Source of the DNA: Methanobacteriota archaeon | GTDB taxonomy: Archaea > Thermoplasmatota > Thermoplasmata > UBA10834 | NCBI GenBank assembly: GCA_020348345.1 | Contig: CP070748.1 | Location: forward strand, 975,851 to 1,039,850 | Length of the DNA stretch: 64,000 nucleotides | Reading direction: 5' to 3' | Position numbers and translations under genes: made by a program | Shown here: positions 15,731 to 63,770 of the stretch, in pieces | Layout: every line of letters starts with the position of its first letter | How positions within the stretch are numbered: position 1 is the first letter of the stretch | The notes under the pieces: generated by a model | The model's input: the letters and a program-made list of their open reading frames with translations, nothing else | Told to the model about the DNA's origin: nothing | The model's database searches: none

Positions 15731-18700
15731 ATGCGCCAAGTGGACATGAACTACTCCCCCGTCCAGTTGGAGAAGGATATCAGGACGAAGTGGGAGGAGG
15801 ACCGAACGTATGAGAAGGTCAAGAAGGCCTCAGAGTCAGGCAAGCCCTACTACATACTGGACGGTCCACCCTACACCACGGGCTCGATCCACATTGGCAC
15901 TGCCTGGAACAAGGTGCTGAAGGATTGCGTGCTGCGCTTCCGAAGAATGCAGGGTCTGAACGTGAGAGACCAACCAGGCTATGACATGCATGGCTTGCCT
16001 ATCGAGGTCAAGGTCGAGCAGTCGATGAACATAACGTCCAAGAAGGAGATCGAAGAGCAAGGAATGGACAGGTTCGTGGAGACCTGTCGCGATTTTGCGC
16101 AGAAGTTCAAAACCAGGATGACAGACGAGTTCAAGCAGCTCGGAGTGTGGATGGACTGGGACAGGCCCTACTTGACGGTGGACGCAGCGTACATCGGCTC
16201 GGTCTGGTGGACCATCAAGCAGGCCTATGACAAAGGCCTTCTCACTGTCGATCTGCGCGTGCTCCCGTGGTGTCCGAGATGCGAGACTGCGCTGGCCGAG
16301 GCGGAGATAGAGTACTGGGACGAGACTGATCCGTCGATATACGTCAAATTCCCTCTCGTGGACGCGCCAGGCGAGTACCTGTTGATATGGACAACCACTC
16401 CATGGACGATTCCTGGCAACCTCGCTGCTGCGGTCCATCCCGATTTCACATATGCCCGGATGAAGGTCAGGCGAGGCACAACCGAGGAGATCCTCGTCCT
16501 AGTCGAAAGCCGAGTGGATGAGCTTGTCGAGATCGCCCAGGTCGAGGACGCCGAGATATTGGAGACGGTGAAAGGTGCCGAGCTGGTGGGACTGCATTAC
16601 ACCCACCCTCTGAAGGATCTCATCCCGTACCAGCAGCAGATCACGAACGAGTGGGCCCACGCGATAGTTCCCTCCGAGACGGTCACAGACGAGAGCACTG
16701 GCGTGGTTCACATCGCACCAGGACATGGCCCTGAGGATTTCGAGATAGGAGCGGAATTCGAGCTGGAGCCGTTCTCCCCCGTCGACGAGAGCGGCAAGTA
16801 CACGGACGAAGTGGGCGAGGATCTCGCAGGGATGAAAGTGAGAGATGCCAACGACGCTGTCATGATACACCTCGTCGACAGAGGGGCGATGTTCCACGAG
16901 GGCACCGTCAAGCACAGATATGGTCACTGCTGGCGATGCAAGAAACCCATCATCTACCGAGTCACAGACCAGTGGTTTCTCAAAGTGACTGACTTCAAGG
17001 AAGACCTCGTCGACGCCAACAACAAGGTCACATGGTATCCTGATTGGGCTGGCACGAACCGGCAGAACGATTGGATAGCAAACGCAAGAGACTGGTGCAT
17101 AAGCAGACAGAGATTCTGGGGTACACCCGTGCCCATCTGGACCTGCAGCTGCGGCAACATCCGAGTGGTCTCATCTCTTCAGGAGCTGCGAGAAGCCGAC
17201 GGTTATACAGAGGGCATGGACGTCCACAGGCCATGGATCGACGCACTCACATACAAGTGCGACAAGTGCAGCCAGGTAATGAGACGTGTGCCTGATGTTC
17301 TTGACGTCTGGCTCGATGCGGGCGTGTGCTCGTGGGCGTCACTCGGGTATCCGGCGGAGACAGAGGAGTTCGAGAGATGGTGGCCCAGCGAATGGATCAC
17401 CGAAGCACATGACCAGACCCGAGGATGGTTCTACTCCCAACTCGTGACGGGCGTTCTGGCATTCGGCCGTTCCCCGTACAATTCGGTGCTCATGCATGGA
17501 TGGGCGTTCAACCCTGAGGGACAGGCGATGTCGAAGAGCGAGGGCACTGCCATCGAACCTATCAACGTCGTCAATGCCTATGGCGCCGATTCTTTGAGGC
17601 TTTACATCATGAAGGCGAACGCCCCTTGGGAGGACATTCAGTTCCAGGAGGAGGGCGTCAAATCAGCGAACCGCACCCTCAACATACTGTGGAATGTCTA
17701 CAAGTTCGCGGCTCTGTACATGTCGATCGACGGCTTCGACCCGAAAGCCAGGAACTTGGGCGAATTGAGAGAGTCCATGAAGGCCGAGGATCTGTGGATG
17801 GTGTCTCGGCTCGAATCGTTGAAGCGGGACGTTGCGGGCGCGATGGAGTCCTATGAGATTCACAGGGCAGCGAGGGCCATTGAGACATTAGTTCTGGAGG
17901 ACCTCTCGCGATGGTATGTCAAGCTCGTCAGAGATAGGCTGTGGAAGGAGGGTGAGGATATCGACAAGACGGTCGCTTTCAAGGTGCTTCATGAGGCGCT
18001 ATCCACATGCTCGACACTGTTGGCACCGATTACCCCTCACATAGCAGAGGCCATCCACTCGAACCTCGATAGAGCCGAGGAGAGCGTTCACATGGTGAGA
18101 TGGCCATCGCACAACGCTGATTGGATCGATTCCGAGCTCGACCAGGGGATGGAGCTGGTAAGGGAGATATCCGAGGTAATCGCGCGGGTGCGACAGGAGT
18201 CCAATGTCAACCTCAGATGGCCGCTGAAGAGAATCGTTATAAGGCCTCGAACGGACGAGACCTCGAATGCCCTCCAGCGACTCAAGCATCCTCTGTTGGC
18301 ACAGAACAACATCAAGTCGCTTCAGGTCGTGCCTGTCGGAGAGGAATGGGACGAGATGATGCTGAGTGTCATTCCGAACCCGAACGCGATCGGCAAGGTG
18401 TACCGTCAGTGGTCCAGCAAGATCGCCGTTCTCCTGAAGAACCGCCCCGCCAAGGCCGTCAAGGCTGGCGTGGACAAGGGAGAGTACTCGCTCGGGATTG
18501 AGGGACAGCTGGTGAAGATCCTCCCGAACATGGTGTCGTTCACCTCAACCCTCCCGCCGGACGTCGTCTCCGCGGAGTTCAGCGACGGCATCGTTTACAT
18601 CGACCTCGAGGAGACGCCCGCCCTCCAGGCTGAGGGCTTCGCCCGCGAGGTCATAAGACGGGTCCAGCAGATGAGAAAGGACATGAAGCTTGACGTCGAG

Positions 18701-19846
18701 GAGTATGTCCGAATTGAGATCGAGTGCGGACAGAAGCTATCCTCCGCGCTCGAGACGTGGGGGGAACATGTCTCTCGGGAGACGCGCGCAAGGGAGATAG
18801 AGATCGTTGAGGGCCCCAAAGGAGACTACGTCGTCGAATGGAACGTCTCTGGCGAGCCTTTTGTCGTGGGTGTGACGTCGCTCAAGATGAAGGAAGTCCT
18901 GAGGATCATCACAGATGCGGGCATCGGCATGGACAAGGCGCTCAGGCTCTACGACGCGGGGTACAACTCCGCCGAGGCTCTGAAGAATGCCGGACAGGAC
19001 GATGTCGCGTCCATCGAAGGCCTTTCGAGGGCAGAGGCGAAGACGCTTTACGATTATATCCACAGGAACGATGCCAAGGCAGCCGAGGACATCATGCCTT
19101 CCAGGGATACTGCGCTGGCCGCCGAGAGAGCCCCTGAACCACCGGTGGAGGGGGCGTTTATGGAGCAGCTTATGAGGCTCCCTGGGATGGCCGAGGAGGT
19201 GGCGAAGGCGCTTCATGACGCAGGATACATCTCGCCCCAGACGCTCAGAAACACCTCTGTCGATGACCTGGTTAATGTGACTGGGGTGGGTCGGCCTCTT
19301 GCCGAGAAGCTAATCGAGGCATTCTCGGGCGAAGCCGCCTTGGGACAGGACGCAGGAGGCGCTGGACTGCCTGCACCCGAGGTGCACGAGCTTGAGCGAT
19401 CGTTCTCCTATCTGGTGGAGGAGGACCGGCCCGAAGCATCGTACAAGCTCTTCCTGAGCACGTTGGAGAAGGGCATGAAGGGCTACTGCATCACCCGCAA
19501 TTACCCGGCGAAGATACGCTCCAAGTTCGACCTGAAGGACGTCCCTATCGTGTGGTTGTCCAATGTCGGCAGAGACAATTCAATCCGGCCCAAGGACCTC
19601 GAGAAGCTCAGTCTTTCTTTGGAGCAGTTCCTCTCGCAACCCGATGGCGGCATCGTGCTTCTCGACGGCCTTGAATATCTGATCACCAACAACAACTTCA
19701 TCACCGTGCTGAGGCTCATACAGTCATTGAGAGACCAGGTCGCCATAAACCAGTCCATACTGCTGATGGCCGTGAACCGGTCAACCCTCGAGAGTCACCA
19801 GCTGAACCTGCTCGAGAGGGAGGTGGACTACACCATCACCGGATGA
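15731..19846 (+). CDS. ileS: isoleucyl-tRNA synthetase with C-terminal HhH-HhH-DUF835 extension
   Basis: The first about 1050 residues are a complete class Ia isoleucyl-tRNA synthetase: HIGH-type HIGT at 54-57, editing domain with WTTTPWTIPGN, CISRQRFWGTPVP, zinc-type cysteines (CWRCKK, CSCGN, CDKCS) and the KMSKS loop MSKS at 600-603. Archaeal enzymes usually end near 1030-1070 residues. Here the frame continues without a break for about 310 more: a helix-hairpin-helix module at about 1060-1113, a second at about 1147-1199 (LVNVTGVGRPLAEKL), a linker, and a DUF835 domain at about 1224-1368 with its marker ILLDGLEYLI-like strand (IVLLDGLEYLITNNNF). The extension overlaps the convergent Nudix fusion gene by 11 nt. 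The synthetase function is certain; the role of the tail (nucleic-acid contact by HhH, unknown sensor for DUF835) is not known. Confidence 0.95.
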   Translation: MRQVDMNYSPVQLEKDIRTKWEEDRTYEKVKKASESGKPYYILDGPPYTTGSIHIGTAWNKVLKDCVLRFRRMQGLNVRDQPGYDMHGLPIEVKVEQSMNITSKKEIEEQGMDRFVETCRDFAQKFKTRMTDEFKQLGVWMDWDRPYLTVDAAYIGSVWWTIKQAYDKGLLTVDLRVLPWCPRCETALAEAEIEYWDETDPSIYVKFPLVDAPGEYLLIWTTTPWTIPGNLAAAVHPDFTYARMKVRRGTTEEILVLVESRVDELVEIAQVEDAEILETVKGAELVGLHYTHPLKDLIPYQQQITNEWAHAIVPSETVTDESTGVVHIAPGHGPEDFEIGAEFELEPFSPVDESGKYTDEVGEDLAGMKVRDANDAVMIHLVDRGAMFHEGTVKHRYGHCWRCKKPIIYRVTDQWFLKVTDFKEDLVDANNKVTWYPDWAGTNRQNDWIANARDWCISRQRFWGTPVPIWTCSCGNIRVVSSLQELREADGYTEGMDVHRPWIDALTYKCDKCSQVMRRVPDVLDVWLDAGVCSWASLGYPAETEEFERWWPSEWITEAHDQTRGWFYSQLVTGVLAFGRSPYNSVLMHGWAFNPEGQAMSKSEGTAIEPINVVNAYGADSLRLYIMKANAPWEDIQFQEEGVKSANRTLNILWNVYKFAALYMSIDGFDPKARNLGELRESMKAEDLWMVSRLESLKRDVAGAMESYEIHRAARAIETLVLEDLSRWYVKLVRDRLWKEGEDIDKTVAFKVLHEALSTCSTLLAPITPHIAEAIHSNLDRAEESVHMVRWPSHNADWIDSELDQGMELVREISEVIARVRQESNVNLRWPLKRIVIRPRTDETSNALQRLKHPLLAQNNIKSLQVVPVGEEWDEMMLSVIPNPNAIGKVYRQWSSKIAVLLKNRPAKAVKAGVDKGEYSLGIEGQLVKILPNMVSFTSTLPPDVVSAEFSDGIVYIDLEETPALQAEGFAREVIRRVQQMRKDMKLDVEEYVRIEIECGQKLSSALETWGEHVSRETRAREIEIVEGPKGDYVVEWNVSGEPFVVGVTSLKMKEVLRIITDAGIGMDKALRLYDAGYNSAEALKNAGQDDVASIEGLSRAEAKTLYDYIHRNDAKAAEDIMPSRDTALAAERAPEPPVEGAFMEQLMRLPGMAEEVAKALHDAGYISPQTLRNTSVDDLVNVTGVGRPLAEKLIEAFSGEAALGQDAGGAGLPAPEVHELERSFSYLVEEDRPEASYKLFLSTLEKGMKGYCITRNYPAKIRSKFDLKDVPIVWLSNVGRDNSIRPKDLEKLSLSLEQFLSQPDGGIVLLDGLEYLITNNNFITVLRLIQSLRDQVAINQSILLMAVNRSTLESHQLNLLEREVDYTITG

Positions 19847-20579
19847 GTCCGTCCAGCAGCCCCTTCACCACCGCCTCCAACCCTGGCACCGTGTTGTATT
19901 TCCGAAGCTCGGTGGGGTTCACCCATTTGTGTTCGTCGTGCTCCCAATCTATCGAGATGCGCCTCGAGGGAACATCGAAGAGGAATGGATGGACGACCCA
20001 AACCGTATCGCCGCTTCTGAAGCTCTGTGGAGTTGTTCGCGCCGATGGCTTTGTGAGTCTCAGTCCGACCTCCTCCGAGGCCTCGCGCCTCGCAGCGGCG
20101 AGATCACTCTCCCCTTCTTCGATGTAGCCGGAGACACCTGCCCATCTTCCCCGGTACGAGCCGACTTCGTTGCTTCTCTGCAACAGCAATACATCGCCCT
20201 TGTGGCGCAATATGCATGTCACCACATGTCGCTCAAGAACTCCGTCCAGCTCGATTGTTCCTGAGTCAGCGTCCACGAATACATTGTCGCCATTCTCTAT
20301 GAGCGATGTGTCTACGCCATCAATCATGGGTATCTCTGACATGATCGCACCAGTTGCGACTATAGGCTCCGCAACCGTGTTGACAATAGCTGCGGGGGCT
20401 TTGCGATTGAGCTTCAGCTGGTAGATGGCATACGACCCTACCGTGCTCCCCTTGCCGTGCGGAAAGCAGAGCACTCTGCCCTGTACTGCCAGCCCACGAG
20501 ACCCGCATTCTGGGTCGAGTATCTCACCGGTGGAAGTGTCGACTCCTCCGAGGAACGATAATGGGGTATTGCATACCAA
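19836..20579 (-). CDS. phosphomevalonate dehydratase small subunit (AcnX swivel, DUF126) fused to a Nudix hydrolase
   Basis: Residues 1-90 are the AcnX swivel domain (PLSFLGGVDTSTGEI, CFPHGKGSTVGSYAIYQL, APAAIVNTVAEPIVATGAI, ending PMIDG). From about residue 113 a Nudix domain follows with a perfect Nudix box, G-x5-E-x7-REASEEVGL. The large subunit lies 44 nt upstream, so this is the second subunit of the enzyme making trans-anhydromevalonate-5-phosphate in the archaeal mevalonate pathway. The coordinates use the TTG at 20579, but family homology extends about 15-20 codons further upstream (IIRGRKIRSGAARGESLV, to about 20627). No ATG, GTG or TTG exists there, while a GGAGGCGAT site sits just before an ATAATT that contains the large-subunit stop. 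Start from a non-AUG codon is therefore likely. The Nudix half may act on prenyl or mevalonate phosphates, which is inference. Confidence 0.85.
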   Translation of the reverse strand: MVCNTPLSFLGGVDTSTGEILDPECGSRGLAVQGRVLCFPHGKGSTVGSYAIYQLKLNRKAPAAIVNTVAEPIVATGAIMSEIPMIDGVDTSLIENGDNVFVDADSGTIELDGVLERHVVTCILRHKGDVLLLQRSNEVGSYRGRWAGVSGYIEEGESDLAAARREASEEVGLRLTKPSARTTPQSFRSGDTVWVVHPFLFDVPSRRISIDWEHDEHKWVNPTELRKYNTVPGLEAVVKGLLDGLIR

Positions 20580-20623
20580 CGATTCACCCCGGGCCGCTCC
20601 CGATCTGATCTTCCTGCCTCGAA

Positions 20624-21793
20624 TTATCGTGATATCGCCTCCAATAGCTCTCTTGTGGGGCGATAGGATGTCTTCTGCCTGCCCAGACTGGGAAGGTACG
20701 CTGCAGCCTTGCCTGAGTCGGTTGCCGTCCTGCCATACATCTCCTCGATGGGTGCTACGACCATACAGGTGTCACACAGCACCCTGCCGAATCGCCGCAG
20801 AATCGCCACCGCCTCCGGACAGGTCTTGAACACTCGGCGTGAGGTGCAAAACCACACGTCAGTGTTTTTCAGGGGCTTCCGACCCTTGAGCACAGATGCC
20901 ATGCTCCGCAGCTCTCGAGGAGAGCAATGAGGGCAACCGATCGCGACCAAATCCCAATCGTCCCCGCCTCTCAGGCCCTCGGCGCACCGCATGAGTTCGG
21001 TCTTGCCCAGCACGATCGTCTCTTCGAACGAACGGCTCTTGGGCGGAATCCTGTCGCCCTTGCGGCGGAATGTGTACATTGAAACGGCGCCAGTGGCGGC
21101 TATTGCGGCGCCGAAGGACTTGTGCTGATCGGCAATCATGTTCAATCCATCAATGTGGGGTATCCGATTACCAACAGCCTTGCCCACCAAGTAGCCTGCC
21201 ACAGGGATCAGATGCGTCGGAACGGATTCGAGTCTGACGAGCACTTTAGGCTTCCGGCTCTCATCGAGGTGCAGTCCGTATTCCGCGGTCTTGCCTAAGA
21301 TCGCGGCCGCAAGGGCAGACGGCCCTCCTTCTCGGTTCGTCCTCGCCCCCAGCACCGAGTTGGCGAAGACGGTGGCAGACGATTCCGCCCATGCGAGATG
21401 TTGTCCATCTCTCGGTCTGTGCCCTGCCAGGTAAGGCGTGCAGGAATACACTGGCAGCAAACCCATTGCGCCATATGCTTGCGCTATGCGCATCTGCTTC
21501 TCGTAGAACTGGGAGCTAACGCCCATGGATCGCCATCTTGTCAAATCCATTCCGAGTGGGTTGACCATCGCGGGAACGGACACACGGCCCTCGGTGGCAA
21601 AATCCTCAAGCCATCGTATCCCCGCATCTCCGATGGTCTTGAACGAGGCTCCCGAGACCTGTGCCGATTCGATTTCTATGAGACGCTCTGCTCCGTAGAT
21701 GTCTCCAAGGGCGACCAACAGCTCCATCGCCTTCATGCGGGCTGTGCCTTCCTCGCCCTTCAATACACGCTCCTCATCGCGCGTGAGATGCAT
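20624..21793 (-). CDS. phosphomevalonate dehydratase large subunit (AcnX catalytic domain, DUF521)
   Basis: The 389 residues show AcnX-family landmarks: MHLTRDEERVLKGEEG start, CTPYLAGHRPRDGQH, AWAESSATVFANSVLGA, RTNREGGPSALAAAI, GCPHCS, WFCTS and LCDTCMVVAPI, with cysteines for an iron-sulfur cluster. In archaea this protein with its DUF126 partner dehydrates mevalonate-5-phosphate to trans-anhydromevalonate-5-phosphate. The product is decarboxylated by a UbiD-type enzyme using the prenyl-FMN made by UbiX, which is encoded at 63.2 kb. The ATG at 21793 is chosen over an ORF reaching 21949 because it matches the family N-terminus and a TATA box lies 27 nt upstream. Confidence 0.9.
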   Translation of the reverse strand: MHLTRDEERVLKGEEGTARMKAMELLVALGDIYGAERLIEIESAQVSGASFKTIGDAGIRWLEDFATEGRVSVPAMVNPLGMDLTRWRSMGVSSQFYEKQMRIAQAYGAMGLLPVYSCTPYLAGHRPRDGQHLAWAESSATVFANSVLGARTNREGGPSALAAAILGKTAEYGLHLDESRKPKVLVRLESVPTHLIPVAGYLVGKAVGNRIPHIDGLNMIADQHKSFGAAIAATGAVSMYTFRRKGDRIPPKSRSFEETIVLGKTELMRCAEGLRGGDDWDLVAIGCPHCSPRELRSMASVLKGRKPLKNTDVWFCTSRRVFKTCPEAVAILRRFGRVLCDTCMVVAPIEEMYGRTATDSGKAAAYLPSLGRQKTSYRPTRELLEAISR

Positions 21794-63206: not shown

Positions 63207-63770
63207 ATGCGAATCGTCGTCGGAATCTCCGGCGCCTCAGGAATCAGATATGGCGTTCGCCTGATTGAGTCCCTTTCATGCGAGAGCCTACTGATCATGT
63301 CATCCGAAGCTATGCGGATGTGCAAGGAAGAGACAGGCATGAGCGTGGATGAGGTGTTCTCCAAGGCGGAGAAGGGCTGGAGGAACGACGACCTCTTCTC
63401 GCCCCTTGCGTCCGGCTCGACGCGTTTCGATGCAATGGTGATATGCCCGTGCAGCACGTCGACGATGTCCAAGGTGGCTTGTGGGATCGCCGATAATCTG
63501 CTGACGAGAACAGCGGCGGTGGCGCTCAAGGAGCGAAGGCGGCTTGTCGTCGTCCTCAGGGAGACGCCGCTGTCCACCATCCATCTCCGAAACATGCTGA
63601 CTCTGTCGGAGGCAGGCGCGACCGTGATGCCAGCATGCCCAGCGTTCTATCCCAAGCCTGACACGGTCGACGACATGGTGGACTTCGTCGTCGGGAGAGT
63701 GCTGGACCAGCTGGACTTGGACCACGATCTGTACAGGAGATGGAGCGACTCGGACGGCGATTACAGATAG
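63207..63770 (+). CDS. ubiX: flavin prenyltransferase UbiX
   Basis: The 187 residues match UbiX: GISGASGIRYGVRLIE (FMN phosphate loop), PCSTSTMSKVACGIADNLLTRTA, and the RLVVVLRETPLSTIHLRNM and PAFYPKP loops. The enzyme makes prenyl-FMN for UbiD decarboxylases. In archaea this includes decarboxylation of trans-anhydromevalonate-5-phosphate, so UbiX connects to the phosphomevalonate dehydratase at 19.8-21.8 kb. No UbiD gene lies in the window. It overlaps the convergent DUF835 gene by 10 nt. Confidence 0.93.
   Translation: MRIVVGISGASGIRYGVRLIESLSCESLLIMSSEAMRMCKEETGMSVDEVFSKAEKGWRNDDLFSPLASGSTRFDAMVICPCSTSTMSKVACGIADNLLTRTAAVALKERRRLVVVLRETPLSTIHLRNMLTLSEAGATVMPACPAFYPKPDTVDDMVDFVVGRVLDQLDLDHDLYRRWSDSDGDYR

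Follow-up and report, generated by a model that had tools for sequence, protein, structure and literature searches.

Within a 64,000-nucleotide stretch of contig CP070748.1 from a Methanobacteriota archaeon of the Thermoplasmatota (positions 975,851 to 1,039,850; hereafter the window), a single minus-strand gene at 19836 to 20630 encodes the small subunit of an AcnX-type phosphomevalonate dehydratase (PMDh) joined to a Nudix hydrolase. These boundaries derive from the open frame and its translation, with a start deduced from relatives. Translation of the frame reveals no stop between the two parts, and Pfam recognizes AcnX_swivel_put (PF01989) at amino acids 22-101 (E 5e-29, 100 bits against a cut-off of 27) and NUDIX (PF00293) at amino acids 132-247 (E 1e-17). 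The swivel domain occupies 20247 to 20624 on the minus strand, as indicated by Pfam, a match to 7cnr_B and fold comparison. The Nudix domain, with the box GX5EX7REX2EEXG, occupies 19839 to 20246 on the same strand, as indicated by Pfam, conservation of the box and matches to NudI and MutT. Directly upstream lies the gene for the AcnX large subunit, which is the PMDh large subunit (20624 to 21793, minus strand; PF04412, E 5e-134). Its open frame reaches 21949, but translation probably starts at the methionine at 21793; the protein aligns with the large subunit of Thermococcus kodakarensis AcnX (TkAcnX-L) from Met1 of the latter. The first-pass annotation, made from the letters of this DNA, had described a swivel domain continuing in frame into a Nudix domain with an intact box and an adjacent upstream large subunit, and each part of this description was borne out. 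The assembly consists of a single 1.7 Mb contig whose nearest named relatives are metagenome-assembled genomes (MAGs) of Thermoplasmatota.

The beginning of the fusion gene is peculiar. No ATG, GTG or TTG is present at the expected start, where the codon is ACG (20630-20628), placed directly after the sequence GGAGG. Fusion genes from other families begin with ATG, GTG or TTG two codons ahead of the first conserved residue. In family f1, to which the window genome belongs, the codon at this position is ACG in most genomes, again preceded by GGAGG, and a few members have ATG or GTG at or close to this site. There is no canonical in-frame start within 49 codons upstream of the gene in the window, and the first canonical in-frame codon, a TTG at 20579, would delete conserved residues if used. 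The fusion gene therefore probably starts at the non-AUG codon ACG. The simplest reading is that initiation occurs at this ACG or at the neighbouring ATA or ATT (20622-20630), and it may be coupled to termination of the large-subunit gene, whose stop codon overlaps this region (TAA, 20626-20624). At its other end, the fusion gene terminates with TGA at 19838-19836, where it meets the convergent isoleucyl-tRNA synthetase (IleRS) gene tail to tail and slightly overlaps its end.

Both PMDh subunits closely resemble the solved T. kodakarensis enzyme (7CNR/7CNS), with E-values of 7e-42 for the swivel half (against 7cnr_B) and 5e-88 for the large subunit. Active-site residues have been described for this enzyme, including the general-base serine and substrate-near residues Ser62, Thr63, Val64 and Leu27 of the small subunit TkAcnX-S, and the two subunits rotate by ~26 degrees relative to each other when substrate binds (PMC8184944). 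Residues S60-T61-V62 of the window protein correspond to Ser62-Thr63-Val64 and L25 corresponds to Leu27; the serine, threonine and valine are invariant among 52 fused proteins. The large subunit retains the three cluster cysteines as well as Glu129, Ser130, Ser131, Lys361, Tyr365 and Asn79, and the sole change among the residues checked is a threonine in place of Asn53 of TkAcnX-L. Because these residues are kept in both proteins, the swivel half and the adjacent large subunit should form a working PMDh. Known small subunits of this AcnX type IIb, such as TK1248 of T. kodakarensis and Ape_2089 of Aeropyrum pernix, share with the window protein the swivel fold, the S-T-V segment, the SFLGGVD loop and a partner large subunit encoded next door. 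However, these proteins end at ~130 residues, whereas the last strand of the window protein continues into the Nudix domain.

The Nudix box of the window protein is complete (G166-x5-E172-x7-R180-E181-x2-E184-E185-x-G187) when judged against the consensus GX5EX7REUXEEXGU. G166, E181 and E185 do not vary across the 52 fused proteins, and 51 of these proteins retain E184. The nearest solved sequences are NudI (6dt3, E 3e-16) and MutT of Methanosarcina mazei (3grn, E 2e-13), and the best NCBIfam Nudix matches are a pyrimidine dNTPase and NudI. All of these NCBIfam matches fall far below the curated cut-offs, and the NudI equivalog model NF012016 gives 36.5 bits against a cut-off of 95. A tblastn search of plasmids with the Nudix half returned only NudI and generic Nudix proteins, with bacterial NudI among the best matches. 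An AlphaFold model of the whole fusion (mean predicted local distance difference test (pLDDT) score 95.4; predicted template-modelling score 0.86 for the two domains together) was compared with solved structures by VIA-align. The swivel half matches 7cnr_D with a Z of 26.9 and a root-mean-square deviation (rmsd) of 0.7 over 128 residues. For the Nudix half, the neighbours include M. mazei MutT (3grn_B, Z 19.5, rmsd 1.9, 134 residues), NudI (6dt3_B, Z 17.9, rmsd 2.3, 132 residues), rose NUDX1 (6ypb, Z 17.7, rmsd 2.0, 123 residues; 6ypf, Z 17.4, rmsd 1.9, 122 residues) and the Nudix-fold regulator NrtR. Since the Z values, 3grn excepted, are tied, the modelled fold points to a hydrolase but cannot separate prenyl diphosphate hydrolases from nucleotide hydrolases.

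Together, these features mark the Nudix half as a putative pyrophosphohydrolase that depends on metal. It shares a canonical box with the NudI and MutT pyrophosphohydrolases (6DT3, 3N77, 3GRN), which are its best matches in both sequence and fold, but it is only ~20-30% identical to them, misses the curated cut-offs and is joined to a dehydratase subunit. Type I isopentenyl diphosphate isomerase (IDI1) also has a Nudix fold and gives a marginal sequence match, but IDI1 lacks the full hydrolase-type box (PMC5389931). Identity with this isomerase was rejected: the score for NF002995 is 19.3 bits against a cut-off of 127, the window protein carries the full hydrolase box, and the genome encodes a type 2 isomerase (IDI2).

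We surveyed AcnX small subunits for Nudix fusions, as the first-pass annotation had proposed, by searching a sample of 300 genomes of the class with a fusion profile. Near full-length matches occur in about 150 of the 300 genomes, among the matches listed; the numbers of fused genomes and of genomes without a swivel were tallied by hand from these matches, profile E-values classify genomes only approximately, and absence from a MAG may reflect missing sequence. The Nudix subfamily itself is present in 188 of the 300 genomes and PF01989 in 191. Counted by hand, about 20 of the 33 families sampled contain fusions, and carriers include Methanomassiliicoccales, Methanomethylophilaceae and Candidatus Saliniplasma. 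In Thermococcus and Methanofastidiosum the small subunit stands alone. A stop between the domains, which would have spoken against a fusion, was sought as well; the frame is open in the window and likewise uninterrupted in 64 of 66 fused loci from named genomes, the other two having failed the automatic test. Because the arrangement recurs so widely and reads through at nearly all of these loci, we reject chance and an assembly or frame artefact as its source. A tree of the swivel domain, built from few columns, leaves a single fusion event and several events unseparated. We found no mention of an AcnX/DUF126-Nudix fusion in open-access papers on the enzyme, although automatic domain-architecture listings may hold the combination. 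One MAG carries two near-alike loci for the large subunit and fusion with the same neighbours (L062 and L063; JAJRTH010000023.1 and JAJRTH010000013.1), perhaps a strain mixture.

The most informative genomes are those in which the two domains have parted. In 25 genomes of families f9 and f10 (genera g13, g31 and g74), the Nudix subfamily is present and a PF01989 match is absent, as established by a set difference made by hand among the matches listed. None of those tested among the 25 has an AcnX large subunit over the cut-off. In the first eight f9 and f10 members translated, ~110-130 residues precede the Nudix domain; the swivel catalytic loops are gone and the ends of the domain are kept. 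This remnant still aligns with DUF126 (hhalign probability 98, E 1.5e-13), and its model has an order of strands and helices similar to that of the swivel domain (mean pLDDT 84.8; confidence is low for residues 23-43). N-terminal parts of f9 and f10 Nudix proteins that lack a PF01989 match can thus be annotated as decayed dehydratase subunits. Five f9 genomes were examined for gene order, and each carries the gene at the locus equivalent to that of the window, with the large subunit missing, the swivel degenerate and the Nudix domain kept. At this conserved locus the IleRS and FEN1 genes adjoin on one side; genes for S24, a dephospho-CoA kinase-like protein and an H+-PPase lie on the other, and a gene for an RNA-polymerase-like protein is also near. 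Nonsynonymous change per site is 1.9-3.8 times as high in the swivel as in the Nudix domain in f9 (six pairs) but 0.44-1.18 times as high in f1 (eleven pairs), with synonymous sites near saturation in many of the pairs. Phylogeny of the Nudix domain places the f10 remnants in one group with the intact f10 fusion (97/96) and sets f9 apart as a separate clade.

To judge from gene content, isoprenoid synthesis in these families seems to follow other routes. All tested f9 members have an MVD-like decarboxylase with scores resembling those of the window genome's phosphomevalonate decarboxylase homologue, and one f10 member is over the cut-off for diphosphomevalonate decarboxylase. Outside the 25 genomes, the f10 genome G250 has AcnX matches in an unusual 689-residue frame together with a PF01989 match. 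At this locus (L214; G250:C9 57000-65000), the frame consists of an AcnX swivel match followed by ~390 residues, with a large-subunit match also there, possibly representing a hydroxyproline-type AcnX. In f10 genomes of genus g13 (G028:C8, G148:C64, G235:C88 and G250:C4), the Nudix gene with its decayed swivel lies ~9-17 kb from the genes for isopentenyl phosphate kinase (IPK) and IDI2, which may be inherited gene order only.

A different path leads to the same outcome elsewhere in the class. A second small-subunit lineage, with FYGG instead of FLGG, forms one clade (100/99) and is stand-alone. UbiD adjoins the large and small subunits of this lineage in G021, G025, G030, G034 and G041, with UbiX next to them in G034. 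Where genomes with the second lineage still have the Nudix domain, the swivel preceding it is decayed or absent: partly decayed in G044 and G070, strongly decayed in G098 and G104, and nearly or wholly lost in G131 and G034 (in G044, G070, G104 and G131 the stand-alone lineage was assigned by subunit length and score only). In genome G023, a divergent small subunit stands alone and is accompanied by a swivel-Nudix protein with a decayed swivel. Loss in f9 and f10 together with replacement by the second lineage indicates that the swivel can be lost repeatedly with the Nudix domain kept. Retention of the Nudix domain where AcnX has been lost or replaced points, in turn, to a function that is independent of PMDh. 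These lineages contradict any role linked solely to PMDh, since the Nudix domain outlives the enzyme in several of them.

What the Nudix half might act on must be considered in light of the pathway. The window genome holds the rest of the isopentenyl phosphate (IP) route, namely an AMPD-like UbiD, UbiX, IPK and IDI2. UbiX supplies the flavin cofactor used by anhydromevalonate phosphate decarboxylase (AMPD), which acts next in the pathway. The gene for this flavin prenyltransferase (63210 to 63743, plus strand; TIGR00421, E 2e-63) lies ~42 kb from the fusion gene and is not an operon partner. A phosphomevalonate decarboxylase homologue is also encoded in the genome (L207:6742-7698; G000:C1 about 1584740-1585700; NF040704, E 7e-118, under the curated cut-off), so that mevalonate 5-phosphate may reach IP by two routes in this organism. 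IPK and IDI2 are each over the cut-off in 37 of 39 genomes spanning every route variant, and so the node of IP, isopentenyl diphosphate (IPP) and dimethylallyl diphosphate (DMAPP) appears to be common to all of them. The genes for IleRS, FEN1, S24 and PPase conserved near the fusion are housekeeping genes that give no hint of a substrate. The IleRS (15731 to 19846, plus strand; 1371 residues) has an unusual synthetase architecture, with C-terminal helix-hairpin-helix repeats and DUF835 (PF05763, E 1.9e-35). Four loci in Saliniplasma-type genomes (L066:2715-3731, L071:6734-7753, L085:4586-5572 and L091:1068-2081) have an MtnA-like gene of the IF-2B family that overlaps the fusion gene at its end; this gene is confined to one group.

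We favour, tentatively and at somewhat less than even odds, a bifunctional protein. Its N-terminal half would be a working PMDh small subunit, moving as a swivel against the large subunit encoded next to it, and its C-terminal half would be a rigidly attached Nudix pyrophosphohydrolase with a job independent of PMDh. This Nudix half would cleave a short prenyl diphosphate, converting IPP or DMAPP to IP or dimethylallyl phosphate (DMAP) in opposition to IPK, and thereby trim the IPP pool common to all route variants of these archaea. Plant Nudix enzymes hydrolyse IPP and DMAPP counter to IPK (PMC6779861). The plant enzymes NUDX1 and NUDX3 therefore offer a possible functional analogy, and NUDX1 structures are fold neighbours, although the plant enzymes belong to another lineage and are unfused. 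A hydrolase of IPP and DMAPP acting opposite IPK is the reading that best uses the clue of the fusion itself; we consider such a substrate distinctly possible, short of probable, and rank it slightly ahead of nucleotides.

Several observations weigh against this proposal. The Nudix half is closest in sequence to the NudI and MutT nucleoside triphosphatases, and the Z values of plant NUDX1 are tied with those of many nucleotide hydrolases. The same node is present and this Nudix absent in the searched members of f18, f12, f17, f22 and f14 and in about half of f10/g13, and the fusion gene has no isoprenoid neighbour in the window besides the AcnX large subunit. A serious competitor, to which we grant a chance of little better than one in three, is that a nucleotide-pool enzyme of the NudI or MutT type, acting on deoxynucleoside triphosphates, damaged nucleoside triphosphates or dinucleotides, was fused to the AcnX small subunit and retained, with the isoprenoid link incidental. 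The nearest solved sequences, the best NCBIfam and plasmid matches, the retention of the Nudix domain after PMDh loss and the existence of isoprenoid-route genomes without it all agree with such an enzyme. However, maintenance of the fusion in about 20 of 33 families would be less expected without a functional link, and every NCBIfam match lies far under its curated cut-off.

Other explanations fare worse. The Nudix half could make DMAP from DMAPP as the prenyl donor for UbiX, and hence for the AMPD flavin cofactor, which would fit a genome that has both UbiX and an AMPD-like UbiD. Three f9 genomes (G027, G038 and G056, of 95-97% estimated completeness) keep the Nudix domain with neither UbiX nor UbiD over the cut-off, so feeding UbiX is disfavoured as its only role; several genomes with UbiX and UbiD also lack this Nudix, and we consider the idea improbable. 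Slightly less credible still is the idea that the Nudix half lacks catalytic activity and serves as a sensor, adjusting PMDh when IPP or a longer prenyl diphosphate binds to it. Regulators with a Nudix fold, NrtR among them, do exist, and a domain attached to the swivel could influence the ~26-degree rotation described for AcnX (PMC8184944), but the metal-binding glutamates are invariant or nearly so. Moreover, because the Nudix domain is kept where PMDh is gone, it would not be merely a regulator or product handler of that enzyme. We found nothing in favour of a neutral fusion in which a dead hydrolase serves as a structural tail, and the conservation of its catalytic residues, the low level of nonsynonymous change and the selective survival of the Nudix domain once its partner domain was lost make this the least likely explanation, one we barely entertain.

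The earlier proposal that the Nudix domain is tied to the isoprenoid pathway thus stands in part. The PMDh subunit residues, the intact Nudix box, the adjacent large subunit and the IP-route genes of the genome accord with it, but action on IPP or a mevalonate phosphate would be hypothetical, and the nearest solved sequences are the nucleoside triphosphatases NudI and MutT. Likewise, the suggestion that the fusion tunes the IP/IPP pool is compatible with a node that none of the observed replacements altered, but this Nudix is missing from related genomes that share the node.

Only recently was the archaeal mevalonate route fully worked out, and the fusion may bear on how archaea control their only supply of membrane-lipid precursors. 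A second enzyme that is covalently built into a dehydratase across much of a class, and that outlasts this dehydratase, points to an activity that can be assayed directly. We regard it as possible, perhaps one chance in three, that an ancient archaeal Nudix enzyme was built into the dehydratase that feeds the very pool on which it acts. Such an enzyme would convert IPP and DMAPP to their monophosphates, form with IPK a control cycle on membrane-lipid precursors, and outlast replacement of the upstream route.

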